Assembly (NCBI RefSeq): GCF_900115975.1
Contig: NZ_FOYM01000009.1
Coordinates: forward strand, 1 to 64,000
Reading direction: 5' to 3'
Length of the DNA: 64,000 nucleotides
DNA from: Desulfoscipio geothermicus DSM 3669
Lineage (GTDB): Bacteria > Bacillota > Desulfotomaculia > Desulfotomaculales > Desulfallaceae
Shown here: positions 1,971 to 6,209 of the stretch, piece by piece
Position numbering within the stretch: the stretch's first letter is position 1
Layout of the letters: every line of letters starts with the position of its first letter
Program-made: the position numbers and the translations under genes
Notes under the pieces: model-generated
Told to the model about the DNA's origin: nothing
The model's database searches: none
What the model saw: only the letters and a program-made list of their open reading frames with translations

Positions 1971-2219
1971 TTACTGGTTAACCGCCTCGGGGGTGGCGGC
2001 TTGGTCATCCAGACACAAATCGTTTCTCTGTGCTTCAAAAAAAATGTCTTCAACCGATACTCCGTAGAAATCGGAAATCTTCTTAGCTAAGAGCAGTGAC
2101 GGGGTTCTTTCCCCCCTCTCTATCATGCCGAGCATTTGTGGCGTAATACCGATTTGTTTTGCTATTTCTGGCCTGGGAACATTGTTTCGTAACGCAATTA
2201 ACTTCTCTCGCCTTTTCAA
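1971..2219 (-). CDS. XRE-family transcriptional regulator (Cro-like)
   Basis: An 82-residue Cro/C1-type helix-turn-helix protein. Residues about 3-60 form the five-helix domain; PRPEIAKQIGITPQMLGMIE is the recognition part, and FYGVSVEDIFF is the typical end of the fold. The start is TTG at 2219 behind AAGGAGG. It is transcribed divergently from a second XRE gene at 2376 across a 156-base space full of operator-like repeats, as in phage or ICE lysis/lysogeny switches. Its promoter is a perfect TTGACA-N17-TATAAT whose spacer holds one operator. It probably acts as the Cro-like partner in control of the element. Confidence 0.85.
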   Translation of the reverse strand: MKRREKLIALRNNVPRPEIAKQIGITPQMLGMIERGERTPSLLLAKKISDFYGVSVEDIFFEAQRNDLCLDDQAATPEAVNQ

Positions 2220-2348: not shown

Positions 2349-2375
2349 TTATAATTTGATTATGGGGGTATGTAT

Positions 2376-2774
2376 GTGGAAAAATACTTGCTACCTCAAC
2401 GGTTAAAGAGTTTACGAGAAGACAAAGGACTTAGCCAATATAATTTAGCGAAGTCCCTGGGTTATTCACGCGGTCAAATAGCTAACTATGAACAAGGAAC
2501 AAGAAGGCCCGACCCCGATACTCTCCAGCGGCTGGCCGATTTCTTTAATGTTTCCGTGGACTACCTTCTTGGCCGTGCCAATGATCCCTCTACTCCCTCC
2601 TGGTGGCACCGCAATACGCCTCCCACCGACATCGAGCTAGAGGATTTTCTAAAGTCCGCCAACATTTATTTTGACGGCGCCCCTTTGAACGAGGAGGATA
2701 AAGAAGATATCCTTACCTATTTGAAGGTAAAGTGGGAGCGGGAAAAGAAAAAGCGAGAAAAGGGGAAGGGGTGA
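2376..2774 (+). CDS. XRE-family repressor with C-terminal extension
   Basis: A Cro/C1 helix-turn-helix regulator of about 132 residues. The N-terminal 65 residues hold the DNA-binding fold (LREDKGLSQYNLAKSLGYSR, then IANYEQGTRRPDPDTLQRLA). The remainder is an acidic linker and a lysine-rich helical tail (VKWEREKKKREKGKG). GGGGG lies 7 bases before the GTG at 2376, so I prefer that start over the ATG at 2370, which is too close. It is probably the C1-like repressor of the element and the likely target of the ImmA-type protease encoded downstream, as in ICEBs1-like immunity modules (family knowledge). Confidence 0.85.
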   Translation: MEKYLLPQRLKSLREDKGLSQYNLAKSLGYSRGQIANYEQGTRRPDPDTLQRLADFFNVSVDYLLGRANDPSTPSWWHRNTPPTDIELEDFLKSANIYFDGAPLNEEDKEDILTYLKVKWEREKKKREKGKG

Positions 2775-2780
2775 TTTTTA

Positions 2781-3152
2781 GTGGGCACTCCCAAAGAAGA
2801 GCTCCACCGCCTAATTGATAGGATTCCGGAACAAAATGTAGCAAAGGCCAAAAGGTACCTGGAAAAACTGGTAAAAAGCGTACAACCAGAAAGCGCAGCC
2901 ATACCGCGATCACATAACAAACCTTTTTATATTGATCCCACCTGTCAAAAATGCGGCACCGTCCTTGTGCTTGCAGATTTATTAGATGATCCTAATGCGC
3001 CATGGGAGACTGTCTGGCATGACGAATTCATTTGCCCCGTCTGTCGCGACTACATTTACCTGGACTGGCCTGAAAGCGAAAGAGCGGCCTTGAGTGGGGG
3101 GCAAGAGGAAGGCGTTAGCTGGGATGATCTCAAGCAAGAACTCGACCTGTAA
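2781..3152 (+). CDS. Zinc-ribbon-like hypothetical protein
   Basis: A 123-residue protein starting at GTG with GGGGTG 7 bases upstream, 6 bases after the XRE repressor stop, so the two are probably cotranscribed. The N-terminal 30 residues (EELHRLIDRIPEQNVAKAKRYLEKL) form a helix common in small element-borne proteins. The C-terminal part has CxxC (CQKC) and a second CxxC (CPVC) about 45 residues later, suggesting a bound zinc. It ends with an acidic tail. I do not recognise a named function; a role in element regulation is only inferred from position. Confidence 0.65.
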   Translation: MGTPKEELHRLIDRIPEQNVAKAKRYLEKLVKSVQPESAAIPRSHNKPFYIDPTCQKCGTVLVLADLLDDPNAPWETVWHDEFICPVCRDYIYLDWPESERAALSGGQEEGVSWDDLKQELDL

Positions 3153-3224: not shown

Positions 3225-3280
3225 ATTTTGATATTTTGACATTTTTCGACACTGTTTTTATGGACAAGCAGGTGATTTCT

Positions 3281-3703
3281 ATGGATTACATTAAACAATT
3301 CGTCAAACAATTAATAGAAAAACATGAAACCAACGATCCCTACCGCCTGGCCCGGGCCATAGGCATTGACATAGACGAATTCCCCTTTCGCCGGATTAAA
3401 GGTCTGATACTTGAAATAGCCGAAAATGTTACCATTGTCCTCAACTCGAACCTCCCGGAATGGCTGAAACGGATTGTATTAGCCCATGAGTTGGGCCATC
3501 GGCAGTTGTCTCCGCAGGGGATGGGATATTTCTTTATGGCAGAACATACATTTATGGAGTCTCGGGTTGAATACGAGGCTAATAAGTTTGCCGTAGAACT
3601 ACTTACTTGGGGAGAAGAACCGGAATTTAATGAATCCATGGAGCATTTTGCGGCCAGGGTCGGGCTACCAGTAGAAATGATGCGTTATAAAGTAATCAAG
3701 TAA
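3281..3703 (+). CDS. ImmA/IrrE-family metallopeptidase
   Basis: A 140-residue protease with the HExxH zinc motif in LAHELGHRQ and a downstream YEANKFAVELL helix that supplies the third ligand region, typical of ImmA/IrrE proteins. The start is ATG at 3281, with AGGTGAT 5-6 bases upstream; the longer frame from 3236 lacks a site. In ICEBs1-like elements ImmA cleaves the XRE repressor to induce excision (family knowledge). Its place between the XRE repressor and the recombinase fits that role here. Confidence 0.85.
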   Translation: MDYIKQFVKQLIEKHETNDPYRLARAIGIDIDEFPFRRIKGLILEIAENVTIVLNSNLPEWLKRIVLAHELGHRQLSPQGMGYFFMAEHTFMESRVEYEANKFAVELLTWGEEPEFNESMEHFAARVGLPVEMMRYKVIK

Positions 3704-3750: not shown

Positions 3751-5286
3751 TTGAAAGCCGTCATTTACGCACGCTACAGCAGCGACAATCAACGTGAAGA
3801 ATCCATTACCGCGCAGATCCGGGCATGTACGGAATATGCCGAAAGAAACGGACATTCGATTATCAAGATATATACCGATGAAGCTAAGTCGGCCCAGACT
3901 GACGACAGGCCGGGCTTCCTTAAAATGATGAGCGAAATTAAAGGAAACCTGGTAAAACCAGATTTTTTAATTGTTCACAAGATTGACCGTTTTGCCAGAA
4001 ACCGGTATGACTCCGCCTTTTATAAACGAGAATTACGCAAAGCCGGCGTTTTAGTTCAATCCGTACTTGAGCACCTGGATGACAGCCCGGAAAGCATAAT
4101 TCTTGAGTCTGTATTGGAGGGTATGGCTGAATATTACAGTAAAAACTTGGCCCGCGAAGTTATGAAGGGCATGAGAGAAACAGCCCTGAAGGCCAAACAT
4201 ACCGGGGGGCTCCCTCCACTGGGGTTTGATGTGGATAAAGATAAAAATTATATTATAAATGAATCTGAAGCACCTGCCGTGCGCATGATTTTTGAAATGC
4301 GTGACGCCGGCCATGGATATAACAGTATTCGGGATGCTTTACATAAGCATGGTTATAAAACCAAACTTGGAAAACCTTTTGGTAAAAACAGCCTCCATGA
4401 AATACTACGCAATAAAAAATATATTGGCACGTATGTATTCAATCGTTCGGCCAGCAAAACCCCTGACGGAAAAAGGAATAATCATTTATCAAAAAGTCCC
4501 GAAGAGGTGATTGAAATACCCAACGCCATTCCGGCCATTATTCCTGAAAATCTCTTTTGGAGGGTACAAAATAAAATGAATCAAAACAAGAAACTTAGGT
4601 CTACAGGTGGCCACAAAGCAAAAGTCGTTTATTTACTATCAGGCTTAATCTGGTGCGGTGAATGCGGCAAAAGGATGGTAGGATCATCCAGCACATATAA
4701 GACCAGGGTAACAAGAGAAACAAGGCAGCGTTATTATTACTTGTGCAACAACGCTGATCGCACAAAAACCTGTATCAATAAGAAGATTAATAAACGCACT
4801 ATTGAAGAATATGTGATAAACAAGCTTAAGCAAGGGATATTCAGTGAAGAGGCCATGACCGGGCTGGCTGAAAAATTATATACCCATTATTCAAACATAA
4901 AGAAGGAAACCGCCGGCGAAGGCGATTATCTTAAAAAGGAATTGGATAAAGTTGACCGGCAGATAAAAAATATTGTTGACGCCATTGCCGAAGGTACTGT
5001 TGTAATTCGGGCCTTCGCCGAAAAACTCAAGTCGCTGGAAAATGAAAAAACCACCCTGGAGAGCCGCTACCAGGAATGGCTTATTAAACAACAAGAACAA
5101 ATTGTTTCTAAAGAAAAAATTTTAGAGGTTTTAAATACTTATAGACAAGCACTTAACAGTGATGACCCGCTTGTTGTTAAGCAAGTCATCGAAAGGTTTG
5201 TTAAAGACGTTAAAATCAATACAGACACCATTGAAGTTAACCTAATGGTGTCTGTGCATACGACTGGTGGAGGCGGGGGGAGTTGA
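3751..5286 (+). CDS. Large serine recombinase (integrase) of the ssrA-integrated element
   Basis: A 511-residue serine site-specific recombinase. Residues 1-150 are the resolvase domain, with the catalytic serine in YARYSSDNQ and the HKIDRFARN motif. Residues 165-260 are the Recombinase domain. A zinc-ribbon follows around 305-350 (CGECGKRM...C...C), then a coiled coil (370-465). The start is TTG behind GGGGG. The C-terminus (TTGGGGGS) is encoded by the 3' end of the oppositely oriented tmRNA gene, which marks the attachment site. It probably integrates and excises the element whose control genes lie upstream. Confidence 0.93.
   Translation: MKAVIYARYSSDNQREESITAQIRACTEYAERNGHSIIKIYTDEAKSAQTDDRPGFLKMMSEIKGNLVKPDFLIVHKIDRFARNRYDSAFYKRELRKAGVLVQSVLEHLDDSPESIILESVLEGMAEYYSKNLAREVMKGMRETALKAKHTGGLPPLGFDVDKDKNYIINESEAPAVRMIFEMRDAGHGYNSIRDALHKHGYKTKLGKPFGKNSLHEILRNKKYIGTYVFNRSASKTPDGKRNNHLSKSPEEVIEIPNAIPAIIPENLFWRVQNKMNQNKKLRSTGGHKAKVVYLLSGLIWCGECGKRMVGSSSTYKTRVTRETRQRYYYLCNNADRTKTCINKKINKRTIEEYVINKLKQGIFSEEAMTGLAEKLYTHYSNIKKETAGEGDYLKKELDKVDRQIKNIVDAIAEGTVVIRAFAEKLKSLENEKTTLESRYQEWLIKQQEQIVSKEKILEVLNTYRQALNSDDPLVVKQVIERFVKDVKINTDTIEVNLMVSVHTTGGGGGS
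5221..5255. repeat. Perfect 12-bp inverted repeat next to the ssrA end
   Basis: ACAGACACCATT and AATGGTGTCTGT pair perfectly with an 11-base loop, 10 bases beyond the tmRNA 3' end and inside the recombinase coding sequence. It could be a terminator for ssrA, although the T-tract is poor, or a recombinase recognition arm near the attachment site. Confidence 0.6.
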
Positions 5287-5623
5287 ACCCACCGTCCGAA
5301 GGAAGAGCCACAAGACCTTCTACGAGCGTAGGTTGTGTTTTGAGTTTCGCCCCTCCGGCGCCCACAACCAGGCTCCGCTTAGAGCTATCTCGATGAATGT
5401 CCCCTTAAACCTCCGAGAATTGATTTAAAGGCGAGCCTGCTAAGTCGACACCCCGAGTCCCGCTCCACAGGCAAGAGCAGGTGGGATGGGCTGCTTTAAA
5501 TTAAGCAGCCAGTGCGTATTCTTCGTTGGCAGTTATAATTAACTGTCCACCGTTTAACGGGCTGATGGAACCCCGGCTCGCTTATCCTGCCACAACTTCC
5601 CCCGTCGAAACCATTTCGCCCCC
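5265..5623 (-). ncRNA. ssrA: tmRNA (transfer-messenger RNA)
   Basis: The 359-base gene begins GGGGGCGAAATGGTTTCGAC and ends with a TPsiC-like GGTTCAACTCC segment and an encoded CCA. The 5' and 3' ends pair as a 7-bp acceptor stem with a G-U at the third pair, the alanine identity element. The tag frame at 5530-5501 reads ANEEYALAA followed by TAA, ending in the usual Ala-Leu-Ala-Ala degradation signal. It rescues stalled ribosomes together with SmpB, whose gene lies immediately upstream. The 3' end serves as the insertion site of the neighbouring element and remains intact. Confidence 0.96.
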
Positions 5624-5633: not shown

Positions 5634-6089
5634 TTACTCTCTATGCCTGTTTTTCATAGCCCGGTCCATTTCCCGCTTGGCGTCGCGGGCGGCAATGTCT
5701 TCGCGCTTGTCATATTTCTTTTTGCCCCTGGCCAGGGCCAGTTCCACCTTGACCCAGCTGTTCTTAAAATACAGTTTCAGCGGAATGAGCGAAAATCCCT
5801 TTTCCCGGGTTTGCCCCAACAGTCGCATAATTTCCCGCTTATGCATGAGCAGTTTGCGCGGGCGCTTGGGTTCGTGATTAAACCGGTTACCCTGTTCATA
5901 AGGGCTTATATGCATATTATATAAAATCAATTCGCCGTTTTCAACTCGGGCGTAACTGTCCTGCAGGTTGGCCTTGCCGGCCCGGATAGACTTTATCTCC
6001 GTTCCGGTCAGGGCGATACCCGCTTCGTAAGTTTCATCCACATGGTATTCATGGCGGGCCTTGCGGTTGGTGATAGTTCTGGCGGCCAT
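5634..6089 (-). CDS. smpB: SsrA-binding protein SmpB
   Basis: A 151-residue protein with the complete SmpB signature: [20 protein letters not shown] at the N-terminus, [15 protein letters not shown], and a lysine/arginine-rich C-terminal tail. It binds the tRNA-like part of tmRNA and brings it to stalled ribosomes (family knowledge). The start is ATG at 6089, with GAGGTGAT 4-5 bases before it; the longer frame from 6110 lacks such a site. The stop codon lies 10 bases from the 5' end of ssrA, an arrangement common in Clostridia. Confidence 0.97.
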
Positions 6090-6209
6090 CTTTATCACCT
6101 CGATAATCAAAGCCCTGCTTCCTTAAAGGAGAGGGCTTTAAGAACAACAGCAACTTTATTTACCACAGCATTAAACTATTATACCACTAACTACACATTT
6201 GTCAATGGG

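Follow-up and report, generated by a model that had tools for sequence, protein, structure and literature searches.

The first 64,000 nucleotides of contig C63 of Desulfoscipio geothermicus DSM 3669 (the window) raise the question of why the gene for a serine recombinase ends inside the gene for tmRNA, and what this arrangement does to the enzyme. The recombinase open reading frame (positions 3751 to 5286, forward strand) starts with TTG, and its stop codon (TGA, 5284 to 5286) lies within the oppositely oriented ssrA gene (5265 to 5623, reverse strand), giving an overlap of 22 nt with the stop included. The last six recombinase codons (GGT GGA GGC GGG GGG AGT, 5266 to 5283, forward strand) all fall within ssrA, and the stop is complementary to the T-loop of the tmRNA (TTCAA). 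The earlier note on this DNA had reported both the stop inside the opposed ssrA 3′ end and a recombinase terminus, GGGGGS, made of tmRNA sequence, and these coordinates bear it out. Its statement that the tmRNA remains complete also holds, given that ARAGORN and Rfam (201.9 bits, model positions 1 to 374 of 374) agree on a full-length gene with the tag ANEEYALAA and an encoded CCA, and that the acceptor stem read from the sequence (5′-GGGGGCG / CGCCUCC-A-CCA-3′) contains the G3.U70 pair. The chromosomal neighbor on the host side of the junction is smpB (5634 to 6110, reverse strand, PF01668).

By its domains, active-site residues and attP form, the product of the reading frame (511 aa in the integrated state) is classed as a large serine recombinase (LSR), or integrase. 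Resolvase, Recombinase and zinc-ribbon domains (PF00239, PF07508 and PF13408) were all above cut-off, the catalytic Ser10 sits in the motif YARYSSDNQ, and R8, S10, R78 and R81 were invariant across 13 homologues. The protein scored 171.2 bits against the NCBIfam equivalog for SCCmec CcrB, for which more than 900 is required. An inverted repeat (ACAGACACCAT...ATGGTGTCTGT, 5221 to 5255) lies in the 3′ coding end of the gene, and relatives retain it, G027 showing a paired change (CAGGCACC/GGTGCCTG).

The overlap is not a product of chance, since relatives across the order and the phylum repeat it in the same frame. Recombinase matches were found in 27 of 113 genomes of the order (E ≤ 1e-40) and in 36 of 398 genomes drawn from the phylum (E ≤ 1e-50). 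Almost all homologues among relatives, down to roughly 40% identity, end at the ssrA 3′ end, most of them with a 19-bp coding overlap in the same frame. Across 28 phylum loci examined, 16 were at tmRNA, 8 were at or ran into a tRNA gene (Glu, Leu, Ala or Met) and 4 were at neither; 24 of the 28, and nearly all close relatives within the order, thus end in or at a tmRNA or tRNA 3′ end. Among the distant homologues (L020–L035, n = 15), L029 alone ends in a tRNA. In the tree, tmRNA- and tRNA-Leu-targeting enzymes fall into one 20-row clade (support 100/99), and L029 stands apart. Recombinase genes ending inside tRNA-Leu, -Glu, -Ala or -Met genes were recorded at L181, L183, L029, L185, L231, L235, L237–L239, L246, L247 and L249.

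A resident chromosomal recombinase gene that abuts ssrA by chance, with no mobile element involved, would also be found beside ssrA in many genomes, as this one is. Such an origin is extremely improbable: relatives without the recombinase have unrelated or empty DNA downstream of ssrA, copies occur in tandem arrays and, at attP-type junctions, away from ssrA, divergent clades occupy the same spot, and sister clades sit at tRNA-Leu, -Glu, -Ala and -Met genes. A protein search of IMG/VR returned no close LSR relatives, and a DNA pattern search of the same collection returned two: L212, and L209, which is identical in sequence to G038. Four other pattern matches (L250–L253) had no recombinase and were set aside as chance.

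The genes on the element side of the junction are an ImmA/IrrE-type metallopeptidase upstream of the recombinase (3278 to 3703, forward strand, PF06114), a 123-aa open reading frame with no Pfam match (2781 to 3152, forward strand), an XRE-type regulator (2370 to 2774, forward strand, PF01381) and a second, divergent XRE-type regulator (1971 to 2219, reverse strand, PF01381). Positions 343 to 1960 appear gene-poor in the open reading frame list. The contig itself starts inside the end of a repeated insertion sequence (1 to 342, from a repeat search), an assembly break, and the far end of the element was therefore sought on other contigs.

The attL core is the 13-bp tmRNA 3′ end (5265 to 5277, forward strand, TGGTGGAGGCGGG), and the search of the same genome for attR required this core followed by sequence typical of element right ends. 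A scan of the genome for exact or near-exact repeats of the ssrA end gave the ssrA copy itself and otherwise chance matches; the search that included right-end sequence gave, alongside chance matches, the attR candidate TGGTGGAGGAGGG (G000:C42:1978-1990, 13 bp, one mismatch). Several chance occurrences of a 13-mer with one mismatch are expected in 3.65 Mb, and the site was assigned as attR because flank, arm and tail were taken together. At this site the ssrA-downstream flank joins the repeat TGGTGGAGG(A)GGG and then the right arm. The left flank is 85% identical over 40 bp to the ssrA-downstream flank of G015 and has the terminal bases TTCCAAATTT, as in G003. A clearer pair is provided by G014, which is occupied, and G015, which lacks this element, with 95% identity over 43 bp up to the core. 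The same downstream flank is found in relatives whose ssrA site is empty or otherwise occupied. Two of the checks that the earlier note had proposed, for a second copy of the ssrA 3′ end and for an empty site, thus gave positive results, the copy lying on a different contig of the same genome, and the meeting point of the recombinase frame and ssrA is a real attachment junction, attL, as that note had held.

The best pattern match for attR, at C37:144335, lies inside a coding sequence that we take to be DNA ligase-like and was rejected as chance. Core matches on G009:C9 and G043:C35 were rejected likewise, as neither has tail homology or a right-end motif. The flank left of attR (G000:C42:1-1977, L129) contains a 10-N gap and repeated segments, which suggests an assembly problem. 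Beyond attR, C42 encodes VirB4-like and VirD4-like ATPases, a MobL relaxase, ArdC, a topoisomerase and an actin-like protein. If C42 and C63 are, as we infer, the two ends of one element, the integrated element is probably an ICE. An attempt to connect the two contigs by way of the insertion sequence gave no proof of a link.

Ten attP sites were compared, either taken directly from attP-type junctions or reconstructed out of attL and attR ends. The reconstructed attP is approximately 50 bp long, with inverted arms flanking the 13-bp core. Here the left arm TCTGTGCATACG (5251 to 5262, forward strand) pairs with CGTATACACAGA on C42 beyond the attR core at 11 of 12 positions (shuffle p = 0.003). 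The arms center on core position 11.5 in eight of the ten sites, this element included, and on 12.0 in a ninth; shuffle p was ≤ 0.003 in eight of the nine sites with arms and 0.057 in the other. The tenth site, G055, has no arms and seems to be a meeting point of ends from two different types of element; it serves as an internal negative control. Because the arms center there, the crossover is placed at the dinucleotide GG at core positions 11 and 12, probably at positions 5275 to 5276 of the window (forward strand). With a crossover at this point the element would supply the last ten bases of ssrA and the old host copy would be freed at attR. Mutations in attR cores were found at positions 1 to 10 (in this genome, G007, G013 and G036), which fits a displaced host copy given a crossover at 11 and 12.

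These ends could instead be the fossil of a decayed and immobile element. The gene-poor stretch at 343 to 1960 and the mismatch in the attR core would suit a relic, and relatives commonly carry recombinase remnants at ssrA. The recombinase, however, is full length, shares 96% identity with its Desulfotruncus alcoholivorax counterpart and has invariant catalytic residues, the arms match at 11 of 12 positions and the tmRNA is intact; decay is accordingly judged unlikely. The element presumably excises.

What goes beyond the earlier note is that the attachment site lies within the recombinase gene itself and that integration exchanges a conserved C-terminus. In approximately 30 attR or attP junctions of the order the LSR frame remains open past the core, mostly for 12 to 28 residues, which places attP within the coding sequence as read from these frames. 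Examples of the tails past the core are GGGGPYLTVTKYIPHLPHK (then stop), GGGGPYRIKSTAEKHILK... and GGGGPYPTVTTDNPNPHLSIFYSDPRP (then stop), that of this genome being GGGGPHVHVYTDIKDTFFCLSYSDPRNVCT (then stop), and homologous tails are common to several junctions across genera. Given that the tail begins with codons shared with the attP arm, where the DNA itself is also under constraint, selection was measured on the codons beyond the arm. There, pN/pS in three sequence classes was 0.38 (n = 12), 0.11 (n = 4) and 0.47 (n = 7), with column-permutation p of 0.005, 0.002 and 0.004, respectively; values for the last 60 residues of the enzyme were similar (0.18 to 0.63). None of the 23 tail sequences had an in-frame stop, and most other frames had stops. 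These ratios indicate purifying selection on the tails as protein, also beyond the attP arm, and since the frame spans attP, integration removes a C-terminus that is conserved. Uninterrupted long forms of 518 to 535 aa occur at attP-type junctions (L188, L209 and L212), for which tandem arrays are another possible source; L212, a phage-like contig, also encodes a repressor, an antirepressor and an endolysin. Counting against this picture, conserved tails also occur in ssrA-side islands that are bounded by attR sites and lack this recombinase (G008:C21:18824 and 37733; G013:C1 at about 4365342).

With the junction, the matching attR, the arms, a frame that stays open across attP and selection on the lost tail all observed in the DNA itself, it is highly probable that the window carries attL of an integrated, ssrA-targeting LSR element whose attP lies inside its own LSR gene and whose integration exchanged the C-terminus of the enzyme. 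The LSR would recombine ssrA with an attP core identical to the 13-bp tmRNA 3′ end, crossing over at a GG within its acceptor-stem portion. The element would thereby provide the last ~10 nt of ssrA (acceptor strand, discriminator and CCA), which would keep ssrA intact, and a displaced core copy would be left at attR. Some 26 codons at the 3′ end of the recombinase gene would be split off and carried to attR on C42, and the integrated recombinase then ends in GGGGGS with a stop taken from the T-loop. The long form encoded by the circle may serve integration, and the integrated short form may be less active or biased toward excision.

Mx8 IntP and the SSV integrases are tyrosine recombinases, whereas the enzyme here is a serine recombinase. 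As in the LSR gene, their coding sequences span attP and gain a new 3′ end (PMC6070905, PMC4383910), and in IntP of the Myxococcus phage Mx8 the integrase end acquired on integration changes the behavior of the enzyme (PMC6070905). Mycobacteriophage BPs, with its integration-dependent immunity, likewise has attP in a coding gene, and integration shortens the protein and switches the state; there the gene is that of the repressor, which is truncated with loss of a degradation tag, whereas here it is that of the recombinase (PMC4557955). In streptococcal ICEs at rumA a direct repeat likewise lies within the serine integrase gene, whose 3′ part, and thus the C-terminus, is exchanged on integration; the 3′ end of the target protein gene is exchanged there too, whereas the tmRNA target here is intact (PMC4701971).

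By analogy with Mx8 and BPs, the C-terminus swap may alter the activity or direction of the enzyme, and such a switch is judged the likeliest explanation of the tail's conservation, at roughly even chances. The main rival is a passive by-product, in which attP merely lies at the gene end, both forms are equal and the tail is functionless. In both tmRNA and tRNA-Leu the T-loop TTCAA, read as its reverse complement in the recombinase frame, yields TGA, and with TCGAA the integrated frame extends by some 20 or more residues (L178 and L179). It is thus the host gene that determines the integrated C-terminus, its T-loop giving either a stop or read-on; the attP-encoded end is conserved. This free variation, from GGGGGS to 20 or more extra residues, favors the passive account, since an enzyme whose end varies so must tolerate different ends. 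The AlphaFold model of the long form L188 is in line with it too, predicting a disordered tail (pLDDT 30 to 45) with no visible structural role. The tails are nonetheless constrained as protein outside the attP arm, to a degree comparable with the final 60 residues of the enzyme, which would not be expected of an end without function, and the passive account is rated as rather unlikely. The broader proposal, that a widespread clade targeting tmRNA and tRNA 3′ ends carries attP in its own gene and that integration acts as a reversible switch from a long to a short integrase ended by the T-loop stop, is put forward tentatively, at somewhat less than even chances.

The closest precedent is DsiB, the serine recombinase described in 2011 at the ssrA islands of Dehalococcoides (PMC3146451). 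Going by its published description, the two systems share a CcrB-like serine recombinase convergent with ssrA, a recombinase 3′ end overlapping attL and ssrA, a directly repeated copy of the ssrA end at the far boundary and tandem arrays (PMC3146451). The earlier note's remark that a serine recombinase at ssrA is less usual is fair by the standard of Islander, where integrases are restricted to the tyrosine recombinase family and tDNAs are not known as targets of serine integrases (PMC4383910), but DsiB is a published instance with the same kind of 3′ overlap. The DsiB repeat is 20 bp with the break inferred in the T-loop, whereas here the core is 13 bp with the crossover inferred in the acceptor stem; DsiB islands also carry a second small recombinase, DsiA, together with ParB and Mom (PMC3146451). 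In the sequenced flank of the recombinase here, Pfam gave neighboring genes of XRE and ImmA/IrrE types, no resolvase domain and hence no DsiA-type gene, and no ParB or Mom gene. The DsiB authors asked whether dsiB is fully functional on the circle alone and left its native end open (PMC3146451). Here that end is read from attP-spanning junctions.

Within the open-licence literature, three things appear to be new: the conserved tail encoded by attP, the geometry mapped for attP and the clade that targets tmRNA and tRNA genes across the phylum. That clade counters the view that tRNA and tmRNA genes are not among the targets of serine integrases. These enzymes are in wide use as tools for genome engineering, and control of direction is their central open question; an integrase that alters its own C-terminus by integrating makes the direction-switch hypothesis directly testable. 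If the hypothesis is true, integration would be a built-in, reversible control of integrase activity or direction.

The element ends are mapped well enough to recover intact elements and their att sites from draft genomes. Between ssrA and an element of 22.8 kb lies a gene-free mini-element of 186 bp that has both attachment arms (G038:C31:4911-5111, L069), and a complete 4.6-kb element carries the recombinase and both attachment sites, with a TAG within the recombinase frame (G007:C23:64643-69268, L139).
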